From contig JAVTVY010033665.1 of assembly GCA_036873755.1 (NCBI GenBank), positions 62,001-126,000 of the forward strand: a stretch of 64,000 bases of DNA. Direction: 5' to 3'. Positions within the stretch are counted from its first letter, which is position 1; the number at the start of each line of letters is the position of its first letter. Below, piece by piece: positions 5,490 through 64,000 of this stretch. Both the position numbers and the translations under genes were made by a program. Under the pieces are notes generated by a model. That model saw only the letters and a list, made by a program, of their open reading frames with translations, had not been told where the DNA came from and ran no database searches. Source of the DNA: Hanleya hanleyi. Lineage: Eukaryota; Mollusca; Polyplacophora; Lepidopleurida; Hanleyidae.

Positions 5490-5740
5490 GTTTCAGCCTG
5501 TGAGATTCATATAACTTCTTCTCAAATTAAGTCGTTCTATTCTCTCATCGTCGTTGCATGTTATCACGGGCCGACTAATGCCAAAGACTTTATTAACAAT
5601 GGATATTCCTCGCTTGGCTCTCGGAAGGAAAAGGATAAGCAAGGACTGGTTGTCCAGGTGTCAGGATGTTGTGATTGGGTCAACGTGATAGAATTGAAAA
5701 ACTGTTGAAAGCGACGTTAGTATCCTACTCACTTCGCATT
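5490..5740 (+). repeat. SINE-like tail (GTTGAAAGCGACGTTAG)
   Basis: The segment ends with GTTGAAAGCGACGTTAGTAT followed by CCTACTCACT. This matches the tail of the repeat at 23440-23615. The body upstream is not recognised. Confidence 0.45.
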
Positions 5741-5759
5741 ATCGCCTATTTAGACCAAT

Positions 5760-5930
5760 AGCCGTTATGATCCTGGAAGCCATTTTGTGTTTTTGTTATT
5801 TTTAATTTTATACACATTTGGAATTGGTGCTAACTGTGATACGAAATAGGTTTTCGATTATTTTATGAACGACGGCTGAATATCGAATGTAGGATCTGAA
5901 GCTTGCTTATTACATGCATGTTTCCCCAAC
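5760..5930 (+). repeat. Family F fragment, reversed
   Basis: Matches 28780-28925 and 50110-50240, with GGAATTGGTG, GACGGCTGAATATCGAAT and CTTGCTTATTA-type blocks. It is the reverse orientation of the copy at 5166-5400. Confidence 0.55.
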
Positions 5931-6534
5931 TGGCCATTCATTTATTCCTCACTTAAATATTCCCAAACTTTCCTATGAAACCAACGACCTTATCAGCGTC
6001 TGTGATCTCGCCTTACCTTGAGGAACATATCAAGACCTTAAACAGCGGAACAATCGGATGTGGCAACCCGGGGAAGGTCGACTCGGGATCCGACGTGAAA
6101 CTGTTAGATAATTTTCTTGATGGATTACTATTGTCAGGGATGGACAAATCTGCATAGTAACGTGAACCTTATCATTTCCCGTCTTTTTTGAAAATACTTC
6201 CTTTTTCCTCCGTCAATTGGGATTCTGTGTCAAGATTAGGAATAGAGTAGTCCTTCAACAACACAACAACAATCGAAGAATAGGTATAAAGTGACTTTCA
6301 AAAAAAGTGACAACATACGTTTTACAGATTTTACAGTTCCGAAGTTAAGTGAGCAATATGCAAACGAAAGACTCCACGGGGGAATTGCTGTGAATAATAT
6401 AATGGAATATAGATCTAAATCCTGAAGACGTTTTATCCCAGGTTTATCCCGTCATACAGCGTACATCCATGGCAATTGGCGTTTGGTTCATCTTCCTCTT
6501 CACACCCGGAAACCACACGGGAGGGGTCCTATTC
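5931..6534. other. No gene or repeat recognised
   Basis: One open frame of 60 residues (5975-6157) has no recognisable motif. Nothing else stands out. Confidence 0.5.
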
Positions 6535-7085
6535 CTTTTAACCCTACCTGGAGGGGAGGGGGGGGGGCACTTTCCGCCCCACCTGTTGTTTTTTTGCTCC
6601 TATCTCCGGAACGACAAAGAATTGAGAGCTGAAACTTCGTGACTTTTTGGATTATCATATTGGGGTCATTTTGAGCCTATTTGCATGACTACCCAAGCAG
6701 AGGAACATGGGTAAATTCAAAATTGCGGCCATTTGGAGTACCAGAAAATTGATGTTTTCGTCATATTTCTTTTTTTGCTTTTCTGTATGGAAAAGTGGGT
6801 AAAATCTATTTTTATTTCATATCAGATCATTATTTACTAATTTATCATGCAGTTTTTGCGAAGAAAAAACAAAAATAAAAAATTCGAAAATTCTGACCAA
6901 AAAATGGTCCAAAAATGCTCGTTTTCAAAATGAGTCACAGTGACGTCATTATGGCGGCCATCTTGGATTTTTTTTACATTTTCTTGTAGAGCTTGACCCA
7001 ATGATATAGTGTGGTAAGTTTCAGCCCTCTAGCTTTAGCGATAGCGAAATAATATAGGAGGGCACTTTCCGCTCATCCGGGTTTA
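6535..7085 (+). repeat. Family G repeat (G/C-run, about 0.5 kb)
   Basis: The same unit is found at 22505-22990. Shared blocks are a homopolymer G/C run, CTATCTCCGGAACGACAAA, CATTTTGAGCCT, AATGGCGGCCAT-like, ATTTATCATG.AGTTT, GACGTCAT and AAGTTTCAGCCC.CTAGCT. Non-coding; the origin is not recognised. Confidence 0.75.
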
Positions 7086-7379
7086 GTTCCATGCCATTGT
7101 AAACAAATAAGTTCAGCGTAAGTTCACCTTGGCAATGACGTCCTGCCCCGCATCATACGGCTAAAGATCCCGATCTCGGGGCGTCCCTATTATGATTAAC
7201 ACATGTACACATATGTTAAATTGCCTTCATTACAGCGAAGTATTAATTTGTGGAAGAGATCGGTAACATGTGGACGTGTACTGGCGCAAGTTGAAGAGAC
7301 AAAGAAGAGAAAAAGGCAGTAGTATCCATTTGGCGATAGTTGGAGGGAAGGGGGAATAAGTAAATGGTAAAGTCGTTTA
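7086..7379. other. No gene or repeat recognised
   Basis: AT-rich sequence with one 79-residue minus-strand frame (7196-7435) that has no motif and runs into the next repeat. Confidence 0.45.
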
Positions 7380-8720
7380 TCGGGAATTCCGGAATAAAAG
7401 CATTTGGAATTATTTACAAGATTAATTGCCCTCAAAGAAACTAAATTAGTTGAATAATTATTAACTGGACGTAACGAAATTATGCATTAGTGAACATCCT
7501 CCGGCCAATAAAATCTAACAATAGCAACATGACAGAGCTGTTCTGTTATAGTCCTTGCCTTCCACAGTAGCTTTAATCAAATCTAATAAACGACGGAAAG
7601 TAACAAGTAATTAGTAATTCAATTCACATGGGTATACCATAATCAGAATTTATTCTCATGCCATTTCTTATTATGATAGAACATGATTTGCTTCTGCGAG
7701 ATCAATTCTACGCCGCAAAAAAATATAACATTGGTGGAATTGTCAGATCCTCAACGTTCATTTGTTGGAATAATGAGCGCCAGACCAACGTACCGTCCGT
7801 TTGAATTATAGCACGTCTGAAAAATGCATCAGCACGGATTCATCCCCTTTACGGTCAAATATGATCGAAACGATGTGATTACTTACGTGCGTTCACCGAC
7901 GTTTAGTATTGATGGAAGGAATTGTGCGAGAGAGACTCGAAGAGTTCAACAGAAAAAAATGTTTGGATTCTGTAATTACGTATCATATCGTCAGTTTGAG
8001 TGAAGATGAAAATTGGCTGAAGCACAGATCAGTTCATGTGAATAAATATTGGGAAAAAGTGATATAGTTGCACCACTGGTCACACACGTCCTGAGACAGC
8101 GCTCGAAATTCTCCATACAAGCCATTCGTATGTTTGCTGTGATTAGTAACAAGGTGTTAGGGTTAATCAATTTTGACTCCACATGTTGATGCCATATGAG
8201 TGTACTATTCACGCATCCATCAGAGTTACGTTCTTTTGACAAAAATATCATACGTCATATTGTTTTTACATCCGATGGACAACATACGAGAATCGGTTTT
8301 GACTTTGGATCTTGAACTTATTCGACTTGATGGTGCGACTAATATATCACCGATAAGAATATTATAGCGGAGTCTACAGATTTTTAGCTTTATACATAAC
8401 GCCTGTCCGAAAAAAAATAGAATTCTGTCGATCGTGCGGACTATAGTTGGCGCCATTGAACATACGATCTCAAACTCCCCAAATTCTCGTTCGGCACTCG
8501 CTCATTGCTTCCTTTAATATTTATCGACATTGACTTCAGGCAGAAAATCATTATTCTGTGCATTTCTAGTGTCATTTGGATCAGTATAAAACCTTTGTTT
8601 TTTTATTTATTATGGGAAAAGATGACCTGACAAAATTGCCACTTGCAAAAGGAACTCGAAGAAAACAATCCTTAGAGATCATGATTGATGGGAAATATTA
8701 TTCAATCACGTTCTAACCCA
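7380..8720 (+). repeat. Family E dispersed repeat, copy 1
   Basis: Matches 12495-13880 along its full length in the same orientation, including AATAAAA.CATT.GG.ATTATT, TTATAGTCCTT, ATGATCGAAACGATGTGATT and GACTC.ACAT.TTGATGCCA. Partial copies lie at 11140-11320, 19560-19790, 22130-22360 and 46270-46540. Neither full copy has a conserved reading frame. Family D follows directly (with a C insertion), so E and D are probably parts of one composite of about 3.3 kb. Confidence 0.75.
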
Positions 8721-27027: not shown

Positions 27028-27195
27028 CTCCAATGAGTAGGTGAGTGAGTAGGATTTAACGTCGTTTTCAACAATTGGGGGGGGGGGGGTTGGCTTAATG
27101 TCACACTCAAGGTTGTTTTACTCATATGGCGACAGTCGGTTTGGTTGGTGGAGGAAGCCTCTGGGCCCAACGTTGCTTAACTTCGGTGATCTGAC
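27028..27195 (-). mobile_element. SINE fragments
   Basis: GTGAGTGAGTAGGATTTAAC (27040 region) is followed by a G run and a piece matching 53485-53560 (TGGCTTAATGTCACACTCAA, TTTGGTTGGTGGAGGAA). The tRNA-like head is missing. Confidence 0.5.
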
Positions 27196-27479
27196 GAGAA
27201 CAGGTGTGTCCAGCATGATATGCCCAACGGCTTCATGGTGGGATATTAGAAGTGGTCGGTTAGGCATTCTCGAAGATGATGTTAGATATCGTTTTCGTCT
27301 TTCGATAGCATAGTTTACAGACCGAACAAAGAACAAAAATGACAGAAAAACCTGGTCGACATATACTGGGGATATGCAATTTGTAGTGTTACATTTGACA
27401 ATATTGTATAAGGAGATGTGCAAAGGGTAAACCCCACGCTCATCGGGACCTCATTGAACACCTTAGCTCATTGATGATA

Positions 27480-42312: not shown

Positions 42313-43695
42313 CTAATTCCACTATCTACGACCCATAGTGCCGGGTTAATTCCACTATCTGCGGCCCATAGTCCCGGGTTATTTCCACTATCTACGACCC
42401 ATAGTCCCGGGTTAATTCCACTATCTACGGCCCATAGTCCCGGGTTAATTCGACTATCTACGGCCCATAGTCCCGGGTTAATTCCACTGTCTACGGCACA
42501 TAGTCCCGGGTTAATTCCACTATCTACGGCCCATAGTCCCGGGTTAATTCCACTATCTACGGCCCATAGTCCCGGGTTAATTCCACCATCTACGGCCCAT
42601 AGTCCCGGGTTAATTCCACTGTGTACGGCCCATAGTCCCGGGTTAATTCCTCTATCTACGAACCATAGTCCCGGGTTAATTCCTCTATCTACGGGCCATA
42701 GTCCCGGGTTAATTCCACTATCTACGGCCCATAGTCCTGGGTTAATTCCACTATCTACGGCCCATAGTCCTGGATTAATTCCACTCTCTACGGCCCATAG
42801 TCCCGGGTTATTTCCACTATCTACGGTCCATAGTCCCGGGTTAATTCCACTATCTACGGTCCATAGTCCCGGGTTAATTCCACTATCTACGGTCCATAGT
42901 CCCGGGTTAATTCCACTATCTACGGTCCATAGTCCCGGGTTAATTCCACTAGCTATGGCCCATAGTCCCGGGTTAATTCCACTATCTACGGCCCATAGTC
43001 TCGGGTTAATTCTACTATCTACGGCCCATAGTCGCGGGTTAATTTCACTATCTACGGCCCATAGTCCCGGGTTAATTCCGCTATCTACGGCCCATAGTCT
43101 CGGGTGAATTCCACTGTCTACGGCCCATAGTCCCGGGTTAATTCCACTATCTACGGCCCATAGCCCCGGTTATTCCACTATCTACGGCCCATAGTCCCGG
43201 GTTAATTCCACTATCTACGGCCCATAGTCCCCGGGCTAATTCCACTATCTACGGCCCATAGTCCTGGGATAATTCTACTATCTACGGCCCATAGTCCCGG
43301 GTTAATTCCTCTACGGGCCACAGTCCCGGGTTATTTCAACTATCTTCGGCCCATAGTCCCGGGTTAATTCCACTATCTACGGCCCATAGTCCCGGGTTAA
43401 TTCCACTGTCTATGGCCCATAGTCCCGGGTTAATTCCTCTACGGCCCATAGTCCCGGGTTATTTCCACTATCTACGGCCCATAGTCCCGGGTTATTTCCA
43501 CTATCTACGGCCTATAGTCCCGGCTTAATTCCACTATGTACGGGCCATAGTCACGGGTTAATTCCACTATCTACGGCCCATAGTCCCGGGTTAATTCCAC
43601 TATCTACGGCCCATAGTCCTGGGTTGATTCCACTGTCGACGACCCATAGTCCCGGGTTAATTCCACAATCTACGGCCCATAGTCCCAGGTTAAGC
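42313..43695 (+). repeat. 33-bp minisatellite, about 41 units
   Basis: The unit contains TTAATTCCACTATCTACGGC followed by CCATAGTCCCGGG. Units vary by point changes, and a few lack part of the unit. The array is flanked by family F (42180-42310) and by the reversed YMDD-element tail (TTGCGAAACGTAGCTCCAAA at 43708), whose own CCCCGGGTTAA..GGAATTA string resembles the unit. It probably arose there. The 33-base period keeps frames open, giving a 290-residue plus frame of LIPLSTAHSPG repeats and an 83-residue minus frame. Neither has a credible gene context. Confidence 0.9.
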
Positions 43696-55565: not shown

Positions 55566-55699
55566 AGTTGTAAAATTTGTATTCACATCTTACCACATGT
55601 AATACATAAAAATTATACATGAATGATTAAGAACAATAGTAGTATACAAGGCGTAAATTGATAAAGTAGCGCTTCACTGTGCATGCGCAGAACCTTGGG

Positions 55700-55730
55700 T
55701 GACGTCACAATTGGGCGTGTGCGCATGCGT
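55700..55730 (+). promoter_or_regulatory. CRE palindrome and near-consensus NRF-1 site
   Basis: TGACGTCA (55700-55707) is the perfect CREB/ATF site. TGCGCATGCGT (55720-55730) is one base off the NRF-1 palindrome, and a second near match, TGTGCATGCGCA, lies at 55678-55689. They sit at the head of the YY1-type array upstream of the CARD/PC4 gene. Binding is inferred from motif only. Confidence 0.5.
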
Positions 55731-56510
55731 GTGTGTGTGTGGATGGTGGGTGCTGGGGTCAATGGGTACAATGTGTGGATGGTGGGTGCTGGGTACAAGA
55801 TGGCGGCGTGTGGATGGTGGGTGCTGGGTACAAGATGGCGGCGTGTGTGGATGGTGGGTGCTGGGGTCAATGGGTACAATGTGTGGATGGTGGGTGCTGG
55901 GTACAAGATGGCGGCGTGTGTGGATGGTGGGTGAAGGGGTCAATGGGTACAATGTGTGGATGGTGGGTGCTGGGTACAAGATGGCGGCGTGTGTGGATGG
56001 TGGGTGCTGGGTACAAGATGGCGACGTGTGTGGATGGTGGGTGCTGGGTACAAGATGGCGGCGTGTGTGGATGGTGGGTGCTGGGGTCAGCTGGGTACAA
56101 TGTGTGGATGGTGGGTGCTGGGTACACCAAGATGGCGGCGTGTGTGGATGGTGGGTGAAGGGGGTCAATGGGTACAATGTGTGGATGGTGGTGCTGGGTA
56201 CAAGATGGCGGCATTAATGTGGATGGTGGGTGCTGGGGTCAATGGGTACAATGTGTGGATGGTGGGTGCTGGGTACAAGATGGCGGCGTGTGTGGATGGT
56301 GGGTGCTGGGGTCAATGGGTACAATGTGTGGATGGTGGGTGCTGGGTACAAGATGGCGGCGTGTGTGGATGGTGGGTGAAGGGGTCAATGGGTACAATGT
56401 GTGGATGGTGGGTGCTGGGTACAAGATGGCGGCGTGTGTGGATGGTGGGTGCTGGGTACAAGATGGCGACGTGTGTGGATGGTGGGTGCTGGGTACAAGA
56501 TGGCGGATTG
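55731..56510 (+). repeat. Minisatellite of YY1-type motifs, about 36- and 73-bp periods
   Basis: Two alternating unit types share GTGTGGATGGTGGGTGCTGG. Type 1 ends GTACAAGATGGCGGC; type 2 ends GTCAATGGGTACAAT. AAGATGGCGGC, the classical YY1 core, occurs perfectly ten times (55797, 55832, 55905, 55978, 56052, 56129, 56202, 56277, 56350, 56423), with three one-base variants (56015, 56460, 56497). Perfect sites are mostly 73-77 bp apart. The array ends 14 bases before a TATA box, so an enhancer or promoter-proximal role is likely (inference). Open frames across it in both strands are products of the repeat. A short second block is at 60053-60236. Confidence 0.9.
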
Positions 56511-56520
56511 TAGAAAAACG

Positions 56521-56529
56521 TATAAAAGG
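56521..56529 (+). promoter_or_regulatory. TATA box of the CARD/PC4 gene
   Basis: TATAAAAGG lies directly after the YY1-type array. A possible initiator TTCATTG is about 35 bp downstream (56556-56562). The leader to the first ATG holds two copies of CTGCTTCACCTCTAG (56634 and 56649 regions). Confidence 0.65.
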
Positions 56530-56692
56530 AGTCGATTTTTAGGGTAGGGGTGTATTCATTGCACTACTTTTGCGGAGCACTGTGACTTACCTGACCTCAT
56601 CCGTCTCCCAGCCTGTCTACCTGGCTGCCTGCCTGCTTCACCTCTAGTCTGCTTCACCTCTAGCCAGTCAGCCAGCCTGCTTGCCTACTTGT

Positions 56693-57979
56693 ATGAGCTG
56701 TGGAGAACCATTTACTTTTTTTGATTTTACCAGTGCAAATTCAACAGACTATTACGCTGTGTTAGTTCCTCACCAGCCTGAGCCCGCAGTCATGGAGGCA
56801 GCCCAGCTAGCGAAGTTTCGAAAGTACCGTGTTCGCCTCATTGATGAAATACAGCATGTGGCTGAACTATGTGATTTCCTTATGCAGGAAAACATACTCG
56901 TGAAACAGGGTGTGGAAAATATCATGGCGGAGAACACACCTTCAGCACAAAACACAGCTCTCATCGACTGTTTACTGCGCCGTGGCCCTTATGCATTTCT
57001 AGTCTTGGTGGCGGGGTTGAAGATCACGGGAAATGACGAACTAGCAGATCTACTTGAAGCCGACGACGTTATACAAGATGATGATTTCTTAGTGATGGAT
57101 ACCACCGAAGAGCGTACAGCTAGCAAACGTACGCACACTAGCCCAGAGAGTACACCTGCTAAACGTGCTGGACGACCCAAACGCCCTCGACTAACACCGT
57201 TAGAAATACCTGAGTCAGTGATTGAGGCGCCAGTAGTACCCCAGCAAGTGCCTGTGAAACAAGAGGTAGAACTTCCTATGTCTGTCCAGGAGATCAATAA
57301 CCTCATCCAGGAAGCCTACCAGGCAGCCCACACGGACATTTGGGAGCTCTCACCCTATTTAACTGTGAGTGTGAAAGACGAAGAAGTGCATTTTAATGCA
57401 GCGGGCTTTAACGACAGACCCGGTAAGCATATTGCCTTGACCTTAGACACCTGGCAAAAACTGGAGACCCTTGATTACGCCATCGATGCGGTTATTCGCG
57501 ATCAGGGGAGTGACGAAGCGAAATTTCATGTGGGTGACGACATCTTTGTGAGCTGTGCTTATTTCAACGATCAGCTCCTCGTGCATATCCGTAAATGGAA
57601 AAGGCGGTTAGATACGCAAGAGCTTGTTGCTTGTCCTCAGGGTGTCACCTTGAAATTAACGGCCTGGCGGAAGTTGCAGAGTCTGGCAAGTACAATTCGT
57701 CAAGCTCTGGCCTACCAGGTGTCTCACTATATTTATCAGAAGTACATCGACACAGTCCTGGGTCTGATCAGACCTCAAATTCCACAGGACACTAGTGTAC
57801 CCTCATACGCACTGATCACTGAAGCACTACAGGTGGTGACCGAGACGCAAATTGCCCTGGCAGTGGAAGCGGCCTGTCCTTCCAAAATTCCACGTGAAGA
57901 GATTATTACCTACATTTACGTGCACCAGGGCCGGAAAGACGATGATGAATTCAAACAAGTCTTGTTGGCGAACTATTGA
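56693..57979 (+). CDS. CARD / AT-hook / tandem PC4-like protein
   Basis: Unnamed viral-type protein, 428 residues from the first ATG, or 395 from the ATG at 56792. The second has a better start context (G at -3 and +4) and may be the real one. From the first ATG: residues about 39-123 match a caspase recruitment domain, with KYRVRLIDEIQ at the start and the late helix RRGPYAFLVLVAGLKITG followed by LADLLE. Residues 157-166 (KRAGRPKRPR) form an AT-hook-like basic patch. VKQE (about 188-191) fits the SUMO consensus. Residues 218-268 hold half a PC4 fold (HIALTLDTWQKLETL), and 277-339 a complete PC4-like domain (FHVGDDIFVS, LLVHIRKW, VTLKLTAWRKLQSL). CARDs recruit caspase or innate-signalling partners; PC4 folds bind ssDNA and modulate transcription. 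A nuclear regulator that also touches CARD signalling is my inference. The frame is intact, with an AATAAA 172 bp after the stop. Neighbour 59151-59996 converges on it. Confidence 0.85.
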   Translation: MSCGEPFTFFDFTSANSTDYYAVLVPHQPEPAVMEAAQLAKFRKYRVRLIDEIQHVAELCDFLMQENILVKQGVENIMAENTPSAQNTALIDCLLRRGPYAFLVLVAGLKITGNDELADLLEADDVIQDDDFLVMDTTEERTASKRTHTSPESTPAKRAGRPKRPRLTPLEIPESVIEAPVVPQQVPVKQEVELPMSVQEINNLIQEAYQAAHTDIWELSPYLTVSVKDEEVHFNAAGFNDRPGKHIALTLDTWQKLETLDYAIDAVIRDQGSDEAKFHVGDDIFVSCAYFNDQLLVHIRKWKRRLDTQELVACPQGVTLKLTAWRKLQSLASTIRQALAYQVSHYIYQKYIDTVLGLIRPQIPQDTSVPSYALITEALQVVTETQIALAVEAACPSKIPREEIITYIYVHQGRKDDDEFKQVLLANY

Positions 57980-58150
57980 GAACAAGTGTTGAAAAACATT
58001 TACCATACACATTCATTGAAGTGGCTTGAGAGCGTATAATTGTATTAAAAAGAGTTTTTTTTACTGTTAATTGTATTAAAAAATTCAATACTCAGATATA
58101 ATTGTATTAAAATTCAATACCCTTGTGAATACGTTCATTCTATTTGTGTT

Positions 58151-58156
58151 AATAAA
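58151..58156 (+). terminator. Poly(A) signal for the CARD/PC4 gene
   Basis: AATAAA 172 bp downstream of the stop codon, in an AT-rich stretch. Confidence 0.5.
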
Positions 58157-58189
58157 AATAGTAGAAAATTAAAAAAATGCTTAGTGTTC

Positions 58190-59035
58190 ATTCTTTTTTT
58201 AATTTTTTGAAATTATTGAAAAAAATAAAAATTGAAATTATTGAAAAAAAGGATTATTTCAACCCCACACCCAGTCCATTAGATGCCCCTTCATGAATGC
58301 TTCAATTTGATACCTCACTCGACCCCATCGGGCCACTAGGGGCTCTCCTAGCTCCAAAAAGGCTATTTTCATACCCTTCGGCCACCGCGCATGCGCACAA
58401 TCACCCTAATTCAATCCCACACCCAGTCCATCAGATGCTCCTTCCTCTAAGCTTCAATTTGATACCTCACTCGACCCACTTCCTCCAAAAAAAAAAATAA
58501 AAATAAAAAAATGCGCATGCGCATTATGCCTTTTTGGAGCTAGGGGAGCCCCTAATGGTCCAATGGGGTCGAGTGAGGTATCAATGTGAAGCATTTCACG
58601 TAAGCTTCAATTTGATACCTCACTCCACCCACTTCATCCAAAAAAAAAAAAAAAAATGCGCATGCGCATTTTTTTATTTTTTTTATTTTTTATTTTTTTG
58701 GAGGTAGTGGGTCGAGTGAGGTATCAAATTGAAGCTTACGTGAAATGCTTCACATTGATACCTCACTCGACCCCATTGGACCATTAGGGGCTCCCCTAGC
58801 TCCAAAAAGGTTATGAAATTTCGTTGACCTGGACTTGTGAAGATGAAATAAGGAGCTAAAATTTTTTTGGGGGAAGTGGGTCGAGTGAGGTATCAAATTG
58901 AAGCTTAGGTGAAGGAGCATCTGATGGACTGGGTGTGGGATTGAATTAGGGTGATTGTGCGCATGCGCGGTGGCCGAAGGGTATAATTTTTTTCAATAAT
59001 TTCAAAAAAATAAAAAAAATTAAAAAAAAAAATTT
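58190..59035. repeat. Nested imperfect palindrome with four NRF-1 sites; candidate replication origin
   Basis: Two pairs of long inverted arms share one centre near 58670: 58371-58492 with 58862-58983 (about 120 bp, few mismatches) and 58528-58650 with 58685-58814. Outer AT-rich flanks (58190-58260, 58985-59035) are also roughly inverted. The 18-base string TGATACCTCACTCGACCC or a close variant occurs seven times in both orientations. The perfect palindrome core AATGCGCATGCGCATT is at 58655-58670. NRF-1 consensus (YGCGCAYGCGCR) is met at 58386-58397, 58512-58523, 58657-58668 and 58958-58969. A and T tracts flank the core. It lies between two convergent genes. An origin, a genome-end or recombination junction, or an inserted fold-back element are all possible. 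Confidence 0.85.
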
Positions 59036-59150
59036 TCTTTGGGGAAAGGATGATGGGAGTTGGTGTTAATTTTTTTGTGCTTTTGATAGAAGTTTCCACT
59101 TCCGGAAAGATGGGTGGCCCTGAAAAGGGCCTTTGAAAGTGTTACGACAC

Positions 59151-59996
59151 TTATGCGCGGTAGATTCTTTTTACTCCACCCACATGCTTCCTGCAGATTG
59201 GGCACTTGATTTTTAAATGTTGTTCGCCTGCGTCGTGGCAGTGGCACATGTCTCCTACACACGTCAGCGTGACCCAACAATCTTTACAGATACACAAATG
59301 ACCACACGGCAATACAGCGTACTGGCTCTCTTCATCTGTACAGACACTACATTGTGATTTTTTTTCTTCTTTATGGCGTTCTTTGTTCTGTCTGGAAATC
59401 TCCGCCTCCATTCCATTCATGTCTTCCCGCATGGCGTTAATCCGTTCGTTGAGGCGGGATACCTCGGCTTCGTGTTGGCATCGTTGTGGTGGAGTTTCTG
59501 CAGCCGAAATCGTTATACTGGGAGTTTCGGCAGGCGACGTTGTTGCAAGTCTATGGCTATTTAACCATGCACGGTCTTCAGCCGAAGTCGTTATACTGGG
59601 AGTTTCGGCAGGCAACGTCGTTGTTGTTGTTGTTGTTGTTGTTGCAGGTGTATGGCTATTTAACCATGCAAGGTCTTGTTCGCTTTCTCCATCAGTTATA
59701 TCACCGTCGTCGGATTCTTCTTCTACGGTCACCATCCTGCTAATTTCTTCGTCTTGTTGACTTAGCCTTTGCAATCGTCCATCTTCTTCTGCCATTACAG
59801 CTCGCCGGAGTTGTTCCAGTTCTCCTGTACTTTGTCTGATCATGGCTTCGTGTTCAATTTCCCGCTGAAAGCTTGTAACTATGGTTATTCCACCATTATC
59901 TTCACTGCTAAGCATCTCTCTGTGTTCTGTAGCCGCAGCATTTCTAGGATCTCTAGGGGGGTGGTGGGTGAACAGTGGTCGTCTTCTTGTAGCCAT
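59151..59996 (-). CDS. IAP-like C-terminal RING-finger protein
   Basis: 281 residues; the ATG at 59996 has A at -3 and G at +4. The N-terminus is basic (MATRRRP). Residues about 45-110 are charged and helical with an acidic cluster (VEEESDDGDITDGESEQD). Residues 108-168 hold an imperfect duplication, with AWLNSH and PAETPSIT each seen twice, separated by nine threonines. Residues 172-212 look like a coiled coil. The RING is C3HC4: C216, C219, C231, H233, C237, C240, C265, C268, ending CPICRKHVGGVKRIYRA, as in the RING of inhibitor-of-apoptosis proteins (family resemblance). It would act as an E3 ubiquitin ligase. No BIR domain is present, so it is not a full IAP. TATA is 45 bp upstream of the ATG, with a YY1-type block beyond. 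It converges on the CARD/PC4 gene, which suggests a shared role against host cell-death or innate signalling (inference). Confidence 0.85.
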   Translation of the reverse strand: MATRRRPLFTHHPPRDPRNAAATEHREMLSSEDNGGITIVTSFQREIEHEAMIRQSTGELEQLRRAVMAEEDGRLQRLSQQDEEISRMVTVEEESDDGDITDGESEQDLAWLNSHTPATTTTTTTTTLPAETPSITTSAEDRAWLNSHRLATTSPAETPSITISAAETPPQRCQHEAEVSRLNERINAMREDMNGMEAEISRQNKERHKEEKKSQCSVCTDEESQYAVLPCGHLCICKDCWVTLTCVGDMCHCHDAGEQHLKIKCPICRKHVGGVKRIYRA

Positions 59997-60033
59997 GATT
60001 GAATTTGTGAATAAATGACAACAGACTACACGT

Positions 60034-60041
60034 TATTTATA
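60034..60041 (-). promoter_or_regulatory. TATA box of the IAP-like RING gene
   Basis: Reads TATAAATA on the minus strand, 45 bp before the ATG at 59996, leaving a leader of only about 15-20 nt. Confidence 0.65.
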
Positions 60042-60052
60042 GTCTAGACGGC

Positions 60053-60236
60053 TTGTGGATGGTGGGTGCTGGGTACAAGATGGCGGCGTGTGTGGATGGT
60101 AGGTGCTGGGGTCAATGGGTACAATGTGTGGATGGTGGGTGCTGGGTACAAGATGGCGGCGTGTGTGGATGGTGGGTGAAGGGGTCAATGGGTACAATGT
60201 GTGGATGGTGGGTGCTGGGTACAAGATGGTGGCCGC
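60053..60236 (+). repeat. Second block of the YY1-type minisatellite
   Basis: Same units and same orientation as 55731-56510. AAGATGGCGGC is at 60077 and 60150, with a one-base variant AAGATGGTGGC at 60223. It lies just upstream of the IAP-like RING gene and so mirrors the position of the larger array before the CARD/PC4 gene. Confidence 0.9.
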
Positions 60237-60311
60237 GGGTGTGAGTCAGTGCAAGATTATGGTATCTGCTAAAAAATGGTGTGTTTTATTTTTTCCAAAG
60301 TTTTCAGGGTA

Positions 60312-60668
60312 ATATTTATAAGATTGTAAGCTGTAGTCTGGATGTATTTTTAGCCAGGAAAATCAATTTATTTTCAATGTACGGTGTTTTTCACACTTCC
60401 GTACCATAATCTTATGGGTTTAAAATGGATAAAATTCTTAAAAATAACGACATAGTCGAGCGCTAGGTTGGTAAATTTTTTAAAATATTACACTATGAAT
60501 TGGCTGAGTTTAATTGGAAATAAAATGTATACGAGCCCTGTTTTATTGTAAAATGACAGCTGTTTATAATTGTAAAAGAAACACACACACACAGATTTTC
60601 GCAGCGTCAGTGTAGCAGACGACAGAGTGTTGTCGCTACGGTCCGCGCTTTTACATTATAAATAGCGC
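60312..60668 (+). repeat. Inverted promoter repeat, left arm
   Basis: Reverse complement of 62692-63048. Matching blocks in order: GAAAATCAATTTATTTTCA, TAGTCGAGCGCTAG, AATTGGAAATAAAAT.TATAC, ATAA.AGAAACACAC and TATA followed by GCGC. It ends at the TATA box of the RING/LxCxE gene, so both arms are promoter-bearing upstream regions. Confidence 0.85.
60657..60664 (+). promoter_or_regulatory. TATA box of the acidic/RING gene
   Basis: TATAAATA followed by GCGCGC, 56 bp before the ATG at 60713. Possible initiators are TTCACAATT (60687 region) and CTCAGTG (60699 region). Confidence 0.65.
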
Positions 60669-60712
60669 GCAGTTTTTTTTCAGGCATTCACAATTAGCCT
60701 CAGTGCCCAGTC

Positions 60713-61582
60713 ATGCAGGCACCCCTGGTTGAAATCATGGATATTGACAAATCAGACTTCACCCCAAATGATGATGTACAACTGCTCGGCGACGTTATTA
60801 ATTTGGTACATGACGAACCCTGGTTGGATGCTATAATGAAAGATTTGTTTCCACCACCACCTGAACCCCGGAATTATCCCCTACCAAGTACAGCCCATTG
60901 TGAAAACCCCCCAGAAACATCGCAGCTGAGTAACTTCTTCGCTCTAGCAGCCACACCGGATGTTGACGCATACCAATGTTTTGACAACATAGATTGCATG
61001 TTAGACAGTCTGTTGACACCACAAGCTAAAGAAAAAAAAGCCGATGGAGAAATGGCACAAGAAAGCAGAAGCCAGACAACAGACACTTCAGACGAAGATG
61101 AGCAGGCGGAGAACAGGGAAGATTTAAACACGACAGTATCCCAAAAGAGGAGGAAAGATTCCAGAAGAAACAGGACAGACTACAGAAAAAATCGGAAAGA
61201 CGTGAGAACCACTCGAAATCGGCAACATGTGAGAAAAAATCCGAAGGACGTCAGAACAAACAGAGTCAGAGACAGGAAAATAAGCCAAAATGAAGACGAG
61301 ATGCGTTATGTTTGGTCGATAGCAACAACAACACTGGGGTCCAACACAGAACGTCAACACGCCTTATATTTATCCTGTGTGGAATGCACTAACCAATTTG
61401 CAAAATTTGCGATCTTCCCGTGCGGGCATCAGGCTTTATGTGAAACCTGTATTCATCGTTACACCCAGATTCCGACATGCGCAGAAGCCAACAAGCCCCA
61501 AATGTGTGAATTACTTTCCTTGACATGCCCCGTCTGTGCTGATAGAAGACAGCGTCAACAACAAACCCTGTCAACAATGTAA
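60713..61582 (+). CDS. Acidic, Arg-rich RING-finger protein with LxCxE string
   Basis: 289 residues; the ATG at 60713 has G at -3. Residues 30-50 (DEPWLDAIMKDLFPPP) and 91-101 (IDCMLDSLL) look like acidic-hydrophobic activation motifs. Residues 123-132 (TDTSDEDEQA) fit casein kinase 2 sites. Residues 145-190 are Arg/Lys-rich with DVRTxR repeats, likely nuclear localisation or nucleic acid binding. The C-terminal C3HC4 RING has C222, C225, C237, H239, C243, C246, C272 and C275. LSCVE (220-224) matches the retinoblastoma-binding LxCxE pattern but overlaps the first zinc ligand. The layout recalls small-DNA-virus early regulators joined to an E3 ligase (inference; family not recognised). It is convergent with the gene at 62080-62652, whose upstream region is an inverted copy of this one. 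AATAAA follows at 61737. Confidence 0.8.
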   Translation: MQAPLVEIMDIDKSDFTPNDDVQLLGDVINLVHDEPWLDAIMKDLFPPPPEPRNYPLPSTAHCENPPETSQLSNFFALAATPDVDAYQCFDNIDCMLDSLLTPQAKEKKADGEMAQESRSQTTDTSDEDEQAENREDLNTTVSQKRRKDSRRNRTDYRKNRKDVRTTRNRQHVRKNPKDVRTNRVRDRKISQNEDEMRYVWSIATTTLGSNTERQHALYLSCVECTNQFAKFAIFPCGHQALCETCIHRYTQIPTCAEANKPQMCELLSLTCPVCADRRQRQQQTLSTM

Positions 61583-61736
61583 TGGCTTATTACATATCTG
61601 GTTATTTTTATAACCACCCATCTTTTCCGAAAGGGGAACTTCTAATAACGCACAAAAATTAACACTAGATTCCCACACATATCCCTGTGCTATAAATTGT
61701 CAGTCCCCTTTATCATTCGAATAACTTCTCTATCAA

Positions 61737-61742
61737 AATAAA
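61737..61742 (+). terminator. Poly(A) signal for the acidic/RING gene
   Basis: AATAAA 155 bp after the stop; a second lies at 61787-61792. Confidence 0.5.
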
Positions 61743-62079
61743 TTTCAGCCCGTTATTATTCGGGTTGTAATATATCAAAATAAAAAAATAAATGTCAATC
61801 CGTTATCGTTCGGACTATTAATTAATTAATGGGAGAGAGAAAAAATCTGTGTTTATAATAGAGAGATCAGTCCTCACAAGGACTATTTGATATCGGGCAG
61901 GGGTTGTTGTTTTTTGGTGTTGCAGTTTAAAAAATAAAAAATAAAAATGGGATGGGGCTGTATGCTTTGAAATTGATGTGCCAGTTAGAAGCTTCCTCTT
62001 TCGAAGCATTGGTTCGTTCTGAAAAGAACGGTTGGTTCAATTTGATATGGTGTTTTCTTCACCAGGGGAGTTTGCCTGT

Positions 62080-62652
62080 CTACTCCCCCGTAGTCATCCT
62101 ACTGACCGAAAAGTATCTGTATGGGCTGCTGTCATCTTCATCGACGTCTGGTGTGAGGGGGTGCCCATCGACAAAGATGGCAGCAGCCATCGTAGGTGGT
62201 GGTTGTTCCCAGATAATTAGCGGTTGGTCGTCGTCGTCTTCCAGGGGGAGAGGCAGGTCTTCGAGAGGGAAGGGTGGTACATCCTCCCGGGGCTGGGGCG
62301 CTGTTGTTGCCGCCGGTGGCTGGAGGATGGCTGGTTGGGGCGTTGTTGATGCCGGAGGAGGAGGGGTGGTGTCCACTTCTGCTGTCATCACTCTTTGTAA
62401 CAAATTGAACCACCCCTCCTCGTTGATGGTAGAGTTGACGGCGTTCAACAACGCCCGAACATTGGCGGCGGTGGTGCTGTGCCTTCCTTCACCCGTTGTA
62501 AGCATCTTCTCCCAGCCTGAAAATTCCCTGGCCCAAAATTCTCTTATTACACGTTTCATCCCTCTCTTCTTTCGTCTGGATAAATTCTTCTTCCCTATGG
62601 GCTTGGTGGTTGTTGTTGACATCTTCGTTGTATTCTCTTGTTGTTGTGACAT
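62080..62652 (-). CDS. Basic N-terminal, Pro-rich, acidic C-terminal protein of unknown family
   Basis: 190 residues from the ATG at 62652 (A at -3). The frame is open slightly further upstream, but only from a TTG. Residues 17-31 (KPIGKKNLSRRKKRG) form a strong basic patch, likely nuclear localisation. The middle (about 35-90) is predicted helical, with REFWAREFSGWEKML and EEGWFNLLQRVM. A long Pro/Ala/Thr-rich stretch follows, then acidic motifs FPLEDLPLPLEDDDDQPLII and DVDEDDSSPY that look like activation domains. No domain recognised; a transcriptional regulator is plausible (inference). A TATA lies 53 bp before the ATG, in the inverted copy of the promoter region of the gene at 60713. The 241-codon plus-strand frame over the same bases (61952-62677) is Ser/Gly-rich, has no promoter context and is taken as a shadow. 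Confidence 0.7.
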   Translation of the reverse strand: MSQQQENTTKMSTTTTKPIGKKNLSRRKKRGMKRVIREFWAREFSGWEKMLTTGEGRHSTTAANVRALLNAVNSTINEEGWFNLLQRVMTAEVDTTPPPPASTTPQPAILQPPAATTAPQPREDVPPFPLEDLPLPLEDDDDQPLIIWEQPPPTMAAAIFVDGHPLTPDVDEDDSSPYRYFSVSRMTTGE

Positions 62653-62691
62653 AGTGAGTGAAAAAGATTTCGAATAATCCAAGTCCAGCGG

Positions 62692-63048
62692 GCGCGATAT
62701 ATATAGACAACGCGCGGACGTCGTTGAAATCGTTAGGATTCTGTGGTTTTCTCGGGAACTTGAACAATCGGCGTGTGTTTCTTTTTAATTTATAAAAGGC
62801 TGTTATTTGACAATAAAATGTCAGTGCCGTATATATTTTATTTCCAATTGAACTCAGATAATTCATGGTATAGTATTTAAAATTTTAGCCGTCTAGCGCT
62901 CGACTACACCGTTATTTAATGAATTTTAGCGAATTTTACACGCGTAATGTGAAAGTCCGGTAGTCTGGAAAACCCGCTACACTGAAAATAAATTGATTTT
63001 CTTGGCTAAAAATATATGAAGATTATGACTTACAACCTTATACTAGCT
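62692..63048 (-). repeat. Inverted promoter repeat, right arm
   Basis: Inverted match of 60312-60668 with moderate divergence. It carries the TATA of the gene at 62652. The divergence between arms indicates an old duplication or one maintained under different constraints. Confidence 0.85.
62697..62705 (-). promoter_or_regulatory. TATA box of the Pro-rich/acidic gene
   Basis: TATATATAT on the minus strand followed by CGCGCCCGC, 53 bp before the ATG. It aligns with the TATA plus GCGCGC of the other arm. Confidence 0.6.
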
Positions 63049-63535
63049 CGGTGAAAATTCCAGCAGGTTTATCGAAAGAGAACTCTAGAAAATTATAAAA
63101 ACAGACCCTTCATTTCACGGCAAGAAACACAATCTGCGCAGTTCGCAATCATTTTCGTGCGGTGTTTCCAACACGGATGTCGGCTTGAAAAGGGCCGGCC
63201 GGGTAATCTGTTAATAAACCAATACACAGAAATGCATGATGATAATGAATTCGGCTTGAGAGGGACCGGCCGGGTAATCTGTTAATAACCAATACATTGG
63301 TAAAAGCGTTTTGCACACCATTTTCAATGTTGTCTTCTCTCCTACCTGTGAGCTCTTAATTGTTTTTACACGCATAAATGACACATACAGATGTAGCGTC
63401 GTCGCAAATGTTCTGAAGTATATTTTATCTTGGAGCGCGCGCCTACAAAAATTGCATTGTCAATTTTAATTTTTTTTTCTAGAACAGGGTACGCGTATTT
63501 TTTTATTTACAATTTTTTTATTCAAATTAGCAAGA
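63049..63535 (+). repeat. Upstream region of the last gene, with a 71-bp-spaced direct repeat
   Basis: CGGCTTGA, then GGCCGG or ACCGGCC, then GGGTAATCTGTTAATAA and CCAATACA occurs at 63181-63225 and 63252-63296. The first contains the 8-base palindrome GGCCGGCC. The pair could be regulatory sites. The rest is AT-rich, with no gene. Confidence 0.75.
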
Positions 63536-63540
63536 ATCGA

Positions 63541-63552
63541 TATATATATATT
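63541..63552 (+). promoter_or_regulatory. TATA box of the right-edge PC4-like gene
   Basis: TATATATATATT lies 45 bp before the ATG at 63586; a possible initiator GTCATTCATC is just upstream of the ATG. Confidence 0.6.
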
Positions 63553-63585
63553 TTGCCTGGCCCGGTATTTTTGTCATTCATCATT

Positions 63586-64000
63586 ATGGCAGCGCCGGGA
63601 AAGGAACTCGCTTTCTTTCAAGTCACGTCGGATGTGATTCTCATGGTGTATGATCATGAATTGCAGCTTATCAAAGAACATCCTAGAGAAGTGAAATTAT
63701 GTTTAAGTTTACCAGGATGGGCTCTATTAACACGCTTGTTACAGGGAAAAGAACCCGAAGTGGATTTTATGCATGTGGGACTCGGTGTCTACCTGCGGAG
63801 TGGAAGAGAGGATTCTTTTTTTCCGCGGCTAGAGCTATTCTACTGCGACCGGCATTATGGCAAGCGCTGAAAGCTATTATCACCGAGGTGCATGACGTAC
63901 TGTATCCTGACAATTCTCTAGCCACCCGTACACTTACCCCGGATTGTACGCTATTATTATATCCTCAACGCGTGGAGTTGGTCGATGATGATAGCCGGTG
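63586..64000 (+). pseudogene. PC4-like protein, frame broken in a T-run, runs off the window
   Basis: Starts at the ATG at 63586 (A at -3, G at +4; MAAPGKELAFF). The first frame is open to 63870 and holds one PC4-like half (VKLCLSLPGWALLTRLL) and the start of another (FMHVGLGVYLR). Just after this, at the T-run around 63817-63824, similarity moves to a different frame. That frame stays open to the window end and contains LLRPALWQALKAIIT and TPDCTLLLYPQRVELVD, continuing the same repeating pattern (hydrophobic strand, then W plus helix). The recurring LxLxxxWxxL motif is the one in the CARD/PC4 protein, so the two are likely paralogues (inference). The break could be a homopolymer sequencing error, true decay, or frameshifting. 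The C-terminus lies outside the window. Confidence 0.65.

Follow-up and report, generated by a model that had tools for sequence, protein, structure and literature searches.

The right end of this 64,000-nucleotide stretch of Hanleya hanleyi DNA (here called the window) holds a compact, virus-like gene cluster, which raises two questions: to what kind of element do these genes belong, and how are their messages ended? The interval from 55.6 to 64 kb makes up the leftmost ∼8.4 kb of an element about 20 kb long, of the Maverick/Polinton type (adintovirus), that is integrated in the animal genome; its accessory genes here encode a CARD-PC4 protein, two RING proteins, and ORF4. Within it, three genes (RING1, RING2, and ORF4) close with a stem-loop of the histone type and, after it, a downstream element of the U7 type, as read from sequence, conservation, and covariation. 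Histone-type 3' ends are a mark of replication-dependent histone genes; new here is that three genes of a virus-like element, none of them a histone gene, carry such ends and show compensatory changes in them. For the explanation as a whole, a Polinton whose RING1, RING2, and ORF4 are run through the host histone 3'-end pathway, we estimate a probability of about 80%. The features of the locus are collected in Table 1; to their left, the ORF list of the first 55 kb contains 18 stop-to-stop frames of at least 110 aa.

Table 1. Positions of genes, message ends, and repeats in the window
Feature	Position	Strand	Basis or remark
Left terminus, begins AGTAGTATA	55638..55734		Start of similarity in 7/7 other fetched copies
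37/73-bp tandem array	55735..56506		TRF
ORF1, CARD + PC4-like protein, 428 aa	56693..57979	+	Pfam
Nested palindrome between convergent ORF1 and RING1	about 58190..59030		Repeat comparison
RING1 histone-type 3' end	59082..59131; stem-loop 59131-59116	-	Rfam RF00032 + downstream element
RING1, RING-finger protein, 281 aa	59151..59996	-	Pfam zf-C3HC4_3, 1.4e-8
Second tandem-array copy, upstream of RING1	60053..60240		TRF (60054-60233) + repeat comparison
RING2 upstream region	60317..60586		Inverted duplicate of 62773..63042
RING2, RING-finger protein, 289 aa	60713..61582	+	Pfam zf-C3HC4_3, 1e-5
RING2 histone-type 3' end	61600..61649; stem-loop 61600-61615	+	RF00032 + downstream element
ORF4 histone-type 3' end	61981..62030; stem-loop 62030-62015	-	Motif scan, covariation
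ORF4, 190 aa	62080..62652	-	No Pfam match
ORF4 upstream region	62773..63042		Inverted duplicate of 60317..60586
ORF6 (fifth ORF), partial	63586..64000	+	Coding pieces go on past window

An earlier note on this DNA had described five long, closely packed ORFs. Their packing and places are confirmed, and four are long; the fifth (ORF6) is probably interrupted in the window's copy, where its frame stops after 94 codons. Among the 10 copies whose fetched piece extends beyond the ORF6 match, 8 matches reach residue 83 only and 2 reach residue 94. The CARD and RING folds that had been proposed are also found: ORF1 contains a CARD (Pfam E value of 1.5e-10; the PDB matches are caspase CARDs), RING1 is identified by Pfam, and RING2 scores 25.6 bits, under the cutoff of 27. 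The proposed PC4 fold of ORF1 is below the cutoff in the whole protein (4.5e-5) and above it when the C-terminal part is scanned alone (8.8e-6; 25.6 bits against a cutoff of 25). ORF6 had looked PC4-like by eye, an assignment that we rejected: its comparison with part of ORF1 reached only E = 0.007, outside the PC4 stretch. For ORF1, the pooled dN/dS is 0.35 (19 of 21 copies), a protein search at E ≤ 1 returned no homologue, and a single-sequence structure model was of no use (pLDDT of 38). RING1 has relatives that are 54% (L060) and 49% (L062) identical, RING2 has relatives that are 49% (L063) and 39% (L058) identical over the RING part, and ORF4 is 44 to 71% identical in other copies. Their domains prompt the guess that the CARD and RING proteins interfere with death or immune signaling of the host.

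The message ends, which are the most unusual feature of the locus and are absent from the earlier note, were detected as hairpins with a 6-bp stem, a 4-nt loop, and conserved flanks. A motif scan of the 64 kb gave exactly three such hairpins, all in sense and 17 to 49 nt past the stops of RING1, RING2, and ORF4. Simulated sequences of 64 kb contained 0.285 hairpins on average and none of 200 contained three; the chance expectation for the three 60-nt stretches after the stops is 0.0004 hairpins. The RING1 stem-loop matches RF00032 at 34.6 bits (gathering score, 34; E = 4.4e-7), and that of RING2 matches below the gathering score (22.5 bits; E = 0.015). The ORF4 stem-loop, whose stem starts with C-G instead of G-C, is found by the motif scan only and is not reported by Rfam. 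Histone-type hairpins are absent from all 23 ORF1 gene ends (window plus 20 copies), from the element's right half, and from 5 partial Polinton loci that come from other sources.

In the window and 20 copies, the hairpin follows the gene in 19/19 ends of RING1, 14/14 of RING2, and 17/18 of ORF4 (lost in L027), with a stop-to-stem distance of 17 to 51 nt over 50 gene ends; in L025, the RING2 hairpin is present without the downstream element. Hairpins are also found in decayed copies, so part of this within-family conservation reflects recent ancestry. Histone-type ends are likewise present in the RING1 and RING2 relatives of 39 to 54% protein identity. Over 30 distinct rows, the stem is 97.8% paired. 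Relatives L050 and L051 have one stem position unpaired (at the L050 site, the upstream gene was read). Two-sided stem changes occupy 41 cells compared to 15.3 in shuffles, and none of 500 shuffles scored as high. Of five covariation measures, two do no better than the shuffles, namely, the number of pairs with a two-sided change (211 and 370 of 500 shuffles as high) and the number of further pair types (500 and 499 of 500).

The best surviving alternative is that the hairpins are a relic of captured host genes with histone-type ends, the signal now being neutral and the messages polyadenylated. AATAAA lies within 300 nt past the gene end in 14/14 cases for RING2, as such a relic would have it, and in 12/19 for RING1 and 5/18 for ORF4, in DNA that is AT-rich; in the window, RING2 alone among the three is followed by AATAAA, about 160 nt downstream. 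On these counts, the three messages may also be polyadenylated. The close likeness of the downstream element to the host type and the presence in the genome of a non-histone gene with the signal also fit a relic. Against it stand the compensatory stem changes, the retention of the hairpin in the diverged relatives, the sharing of one signal by three different genes, and the lack of any RING1 homologue at E ≤ 0.001 in the searched protein database. We consider a relic unlikely.

A somewhat less probable alternative still is that the hairpins act otherwise and without U7 cleavage, such as in RNA stability, translation, or packaging. The purine-rich element downstream of RING1, RING2, and ORF4 resembles that of a host linker-histone H1 gene (Pfam, 6.8e-21); in the H1 gene and at further sites of the host, this hairpin and purine element occur as well. 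A cluster of RF00032 matches on C35382 was rejected as histone genes, one unit read there encoding a small coiled-coil-like protein. In single-sequence folds, the purine element partly falls within a second small hairpin. Pairing with a U7 candidate (27.1 bits; E = 0.89, below the Rfam cutoff) is good for ORF4 (−12.5 kcal/mol) and H1 (−12.6 kcal/mol), moderate for RING2 (−8.7; 8% of shuffles as good), and poor for the window's RING1 (−5.1; 45% of shuffles as good). The weak pairing of the window's RING1 and the second hairpin speak for another function. Against it, the purine element matches the host's own in place and sequence, pairing with the sub-cutoff U7 candidate is good for ORF4 and for three relatives, and the second hairpin has no two-sided change.

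ORF1 matches 98 places, including the window's own, on many contigs of the 2.48-Gb animal assembly. In 7/7 other fetched copies (L002 to L008), similarity starts at 55634 to 55638, and the four left flanks inspected differ. A co-assembled virus, one option of the earlier note, is unlikely given these many places, the common terminus, and the differing flanks. The left boundary that had been drawn at 55,680 stands in substance and is moved slightly left, to about 55,638. In the left terminus, TGACGTCA and GCGCATGCGC are motifs that we take to be CRE-like and NRF1-like, respectively, and CAAGATGGCGGC, repeated in the 37/73-bp array, is presumably YY1-like. The right part of this array recurs inverted at the element's right end (92% over 150 columns; window 56413-56558 versus L010 1979-1830), forming a terminal inverted repeat. 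At the right end of the window's element, which may be truncated there, the outermost sequence of the left side was not observed. Maverick/Polinton elements are associated with a short target-site duplication. The large repeats noticed earlier are real and comprise the tandem arrays, the nested palindrome (arms of 128 nt at 96% and 123 nt at 98%), and an inverted duplication upstream of RING2 and ORF4 (pieces 77 to 85% alike). The palindrome is a possible origin or recombination hot spot. Matches to microRNA families at ∼58.5 to 58.8 kb were set aside as the palindrome fitting hairpin models, all below gathering scores.

Extension to the right, as had been proposed, revealed integrase, polymerase, capsid, and protease- and ATPase-like genes, in keeping with an integrated dsDNA virus viewed from its accessory end. 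The integrase, on the same contig, combines rve (2.1e-10) with Chromo (4.1e-6), both above Pfam cutoffs; an rve integrase with a C-terminal chromodomain is among the features given for Maverick/Polinton elements (adintoviruses) in the relevant part of the source (PMC11071296). The capsid has 2299 homologues at E ≤ 0.001 in a protein homologue search, some named "F54H12.2-like" (Liolophura, Apostichopus, and Patiria), and no sequence match of its own in Pfam, PHROGs, or PDB. A model of the capsid family (pLDDT of 84), whose first sequence (P0001) is 57% identical to the element's capsid, matches the double-jelly-roll capsids of iridovirus, PBCV-1, Sputnik, and mavirus by structure comparison. 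None of the polymerase pieces on the window's contig is itself matched by a Pfam polymerase profile; the C-terminal piece is 47% identical (E = 6e-103) to a frame of L032 that matches DNA_pol_B_2 at 2.9e-9. The polymerase frame contains two in-frame stops in the window's copy, and, as a candidate for the N-terminal OTU-like domain of such polymerases, an OTU-like stretch was seen by eye only, with no Pfam OTU match in L010:1-1842. An adenain-like frame reaches 21.2 bits for Peptidase_C5 (E = 2.6e-4), 0.1 below the Pfam cutoff. The ATPase-like frame has a Walker A motif, weak sub-cutoff Pfam matches (Pox_A32 at 5.1e-4, FtsK, and Adeno_IVa2), and a PHROGs match to terminase (8.8e-4). No relatives came from searches of viral contigs, for which ORF1, the capsid, and an alignment of capsids served as queries, nor from a search of phage records. 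Of the lineages that had been left open, the Polinton/adintovirus option is thus the one realized, while a malacoherpesvirus-like or wholly new dsDNA virus lineage, to which CARD, RING, and large palindromes known from other DNA viruses might have pointed, is refuted here, since the contig of this locus also carries an integrase, a Polinton-type capsid, a polymerase, and a terminal inverted repeat.

Taken at the sequence level, these features suggest that the element makes use of the histone pathway by which the host links expression to DNA replication. Host SLBP and the U7 snRNP would cut the RING1, RING2, and ORF4 messages after the hairpin, leaving them without a poly(A) tail, and the messages would be produced chiefly in S phase, at the time when replication by the element's DNA polymerase would take place. 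The ORF1 message, with AATAAA (at 58151 in the window, and within 300 nt in 22/23 ends) and no hairpin, would receive a poly(A) tail and escape S-phase coupling, while RING2, with AATAAA farther down, may use both kinds of end. With less assurance than for the locus itself, we lean toward the view that a group of animal Polintons/adintoviruses runs an accessory-gene set through SLBP/U7, making the proteins only during host DNA replication. If so, a virus-like element holds a cell-cycle switch in the ends of its messages, and poly(A)-selected RNA-seq can miss such transcripts, such that accessory genes may look silent though active. The conserved ends tie a Polinton to the host cell cycle in a concrete way that can be tested.

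No virus or transposon using histone stem-loop mRNA ends was found in the open-access literature searched; an EBV paper that came up for SLBP names it in the references only. Potato spindle tuber viroid is, like the element, a selfish nucleic acid with a histone-hairpin loop: its loop 27 is identical in sequence to the animal loop (PMC6827988). According to the passages concerned, however, this plant viroid lacks the extended stem, its hosts have no reported homologue of SLBP, and the role of the loop is in replication and trafficking rather than at mRNA 3' ends (PMC6827988). The element resembles the Maverick/Polintons of invertebrates and adintoviruses in its size of ∼20 kb, terminal inverted repeat, integrase with chromodomain, PolB, double-jelly-roll capsid, ATPase- and adenain-like frames, and many genomic places; it differs in the histone-type 3' ends on three genes and in that searches with ORF1 and RING1 gave no recognizable relatives outside the host genome. 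Viruses are known to encode CARD and IAP-type RING regulators, which the CARD and C3HC4 RING folds of the element resemble by profile. Unlike in such viral regulators, no BIR domain is among the Pfam matches, and the CARD is fused to a PC4-like domain. Compared with animal replication-dependent histone genes (stem-loop, SLBP, and U7 snRNP), the element's products are different, being RING and unassigned proteins, and RING2 also has AATAAA farther down; the hairpin shape, the purine element, the short stop-to-stem distance, and genes in which no introns are seen are common to both.

RING1, RING2, and ORF4, three genes at the right end of the window, are each followed by a histone-type 3′ stem-loop. 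Rfam (RF00032) places one directly 3′ of RING1, at 34.6 bits and over the gathering score, with a lower-scoring match 3′ of RING2 (22.5 bits; E = 0.015). When both strands of the 64 kb were scanned for a hairpin motif, three hairpins emerged, 3′ of RING1, RING2, and ORF4 and all in sense; the 29,113 bases that follow the window on the right contained none. Simulated sequences of the same dinucleotide composition gave 0.285 hairpins per 64 kb and three hairpins in 0 of 200 cases, figures that favor the sites because the motif was drawn up after these were known; the Rfam match is independent of this after-the-fact motif.

The hairpins are conserved among copies of the element. Across the window and 20 copies, gene-specific patterns detected them at every RING1 end (19 of 19), at every RING2 end (14 of 14), and at all but one ORF4 end (17 of 18); a general pattern detected none at 23 ORF1 ends. 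The 20 copies (168,003 bases) hold 39 strict hairpins, every one of RING1, RING2, or ORF4 type. From 50 sequences found by pattern, 30 distinct rows (8 RING1, 6 RING2, and 16 ORF4) were aligned: 97.8% of cells are paired, two-sided changes occur at four of six pairs, and shifting the partner by one to three columns lowers stem pairing to 15 to 48%. The covariation score of this alignment was reached by 0 of 500 shuffles, a comparison that kinship among the aligned sequences can inflate; two of five covariation measures (pairs with a two-sided change and pair types) were no better than shuffles for the 30 rows. All 16 distinct rows of the ORF4 hairpin are paired, and 10 two-sided changes occur among them, even though ORF4 proteins are only 44 to 71% identical between the window and the other copies.

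Across the genome, at least 74 RF00032 matches were found, 72 of them over the cutoff (75 of 360,901 candidates scored). Of the 74, 16 were read as short pieces; in every one, an AAAG(A/G)G-type purine element lies a short distance 3′ of the hairpin, and in 10 it is exactly CGAAAGAG, as at ORF4; the hairpins at two sites (L050 and L051) have one unpaired stem position each. The upstream gene was read at seven of these sites, picked to span different sequence types rather than at random: RING1 has two relatives among them (54% and 49% identical), RING2 also has two (49% and 39%, measured over the RING part), another two are related to a small coiled-coil-like gene, and one encodes a linker histone (H1; Pfam, 6.8e-21). 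Since the RING1 and RING2 relatives keep both hairpin and element, the signal has been retained in element families whose proteins are about half different. The coiled-coil-like gene on contigs C35382 and C12535 matches no Pfam family over its cutoff and, judged by the frames read, is not a histone gene; C35382 carries seven RF00032 matches, several of them spaced by ∼4.4 kb, and other contigs have similar 3′ ends.

A candidate U7 RNA, with CUCUUUC in its 5′ part, occurs at two genomic places (27.1 bits, below the cutoff). Its predicted pairing reaches −12.6 kcal/mol with the H1 element (0.6% of 500 shuffles as good), −12.5 with ORF4 (1% of 500), −9.8 to −12.4 with three RING relatives (0 to 2.8%), and −8.7 with RING2 (8%). 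RING1 pairs at only −5.1 kcal/mol (45%), a figure for the window's copy, from which most other RING1 copies differ in the downstream element.

We assign the element to Maverick/Polinton, or adintovirus in virus terms, applying the definition given in PMC11071296 (integrase with chromodomain, hexon, and PolB with OTU). The window spans bases 62001 to 126000 of a contig of 155,113 bases that belongs to an animal assembly of 2.48 Gb. In the 12 kb to its right, separate frames encode an integrase with chromodomain, a P-loop ATPase, a capsid protein, and an adenain-like protease whose Pfam score falls 0.1 bits short of the cutoff; penton-like and small basic frames were recognized by eye, and a long polymerase frame lies on the opposite strand. 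The OTU part of the polymerase was recognized by eye only; its C-terminal piece shares 47% identity with a frame on L032, a bacterial MAG contig, that has Pfam DNA_pol_B_2. The capsid has 2,299 homologues at E ≤ 0.001 (the top one 57% identical), those named including chiton, sea cucumber, sea star, and periwinkle proteins. A family model built on the best homologue shows matches to double-jelly-roll capsids (iridovirus, PBCV-1, Sputnik, and mavirus) and to adomavirus, MELD-virus, and adintovirus entries.

Read from left to right, the window's portion has a tandem array and then ORF1 (CARD plus PC4), a nested palindrome and RING1, another short array and RING2, and finally ORF4 and the beginning of ORF6; part of the left array recurs inverted beyond the polymerase frame. 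The left flanks of the four copies compared, the window's included, are unlike one another. The palindrome is a candidate origin or rearrangement hot spot, and the duplicated upstream regions suggest that RING2 and ORF4 may share regulation.

Coordinates of features in the window and at related loci
Location	Feature	Details
Window 27156–27231	5S rRNA-like match	43.3 bits; 76 bases against a model of 120 positions; may belong to a SINE
Window 42314–43693	33-bp minisatellite	42 copies; strong strand skew
Window 55634–55638	Onset of similarity	7 of 7 other fetched copies
Window, from about 55638	Gene-dense part	
Window 58190–59030	Nested palindrome, ∼840 bp	Separates convergent genes; some other copies have a different arrangement
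Window 60317–60586 and 62773–63042	RING2 and ORF4 upstream regions	Inverted duplicates
L010 (contig right of window) 5532–7502	Frames resembling Penelope-like reverse transcriptase with GIY-YIG end	Right of element; by eye
Same assembly (G000), C32679:2282–8831	Three ORF1 copies in series	∼2.6 kb apart
G000, C35382 ∼3.2–42 kb (L059) and C12535 (L057)	Small coiled-coil-like gene, ∼115 aa	Histone-type 3′ end

An ORF1 search of the genome gave at least 101 matches at 98 or more places, the window's own counted, a lower bound with 98 of 7,492 first-look candidates scored. The other matches are 90 to 97% identical, with in-frame stops at nine places and a split in two at three. Pooled dN/dS is 0.35 (19 of 21 copies; the two left out contain stops) and by part 0.21 for the C terminus, 0.31 for the PC4-like part, 0.57 for the CARD, and 0.69 for the linker, from pairs that are not independent; constraint on the CARD is therefore weak. 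In the window's copy two in-frame stops break the polymerase frame, and ORF6 is probably interrupted. RING1, RING2, or ORF4 is broken or shortened in several fetched copies; other copies contain no stop in the portions that were searched. The ORF1 series on C32679 would fit separate amplification of the left end, and two further loci (L013 and L023) hold more than one ORF1 piece each.

AATAAA lies within 300 nt past the gene end in 22 of 23 ORF1, 14 of 14 RING2, 12 of 19 RING1, and 5 of 18 ORF4 cases, and in the window itself after ORF1 and RING2 only; RING2 may therefore have both kinds of 3′ end. Beyond the documented element type, copies, signals, and conservation, we infer that SLBP and U7 would cut the RING1, RING2, and ORF4 pre-mRNAs 3′ of the hairpin, yielding messages that would have no poly(A) and would build up during S phase, and that the ORF1 message would be polyadenylated. 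The advantage would be to have accessory proteins present when nucleotides and replication factors are available to the element's polymerase. Going by domains alone, our guess is that the CARD and RING proteins interfere with cell-death or immune signaling.

Polinton capsid genes also occur on five bacterial MAG contigs (L032 to L036; two from one Escarpia tubeworm symbiont and one each from a Bathymodiolus mussel symbiont, Breoghania, and Planctomycetota), most likely as animal contamination. These partial loci are 3.6 to 21 kb long and may stop short of the accessory side; they yielded no hairpin signal and, with a best tblastn E of 0.27, nothing related to the accessory proteins. The signal, missing there, may thus be limited to this lineage.

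Mavericks in molluscs are put at 1.69 and 1.93% in two table columns of a Mercenaria paper (PMC8905726) and were found in every mollusc genome analyzed in another study (PMC10294476); since they are common in molluscs, the element itself is nothing new. It is of a known kind, and its histone-type 3′ ends are what is new: we found no work in the open-access literature joining histone stem-loops to transposons or DNA viruses, and the nearest case there is a viroid with a loop resembling the histone loop (PMC6827988).
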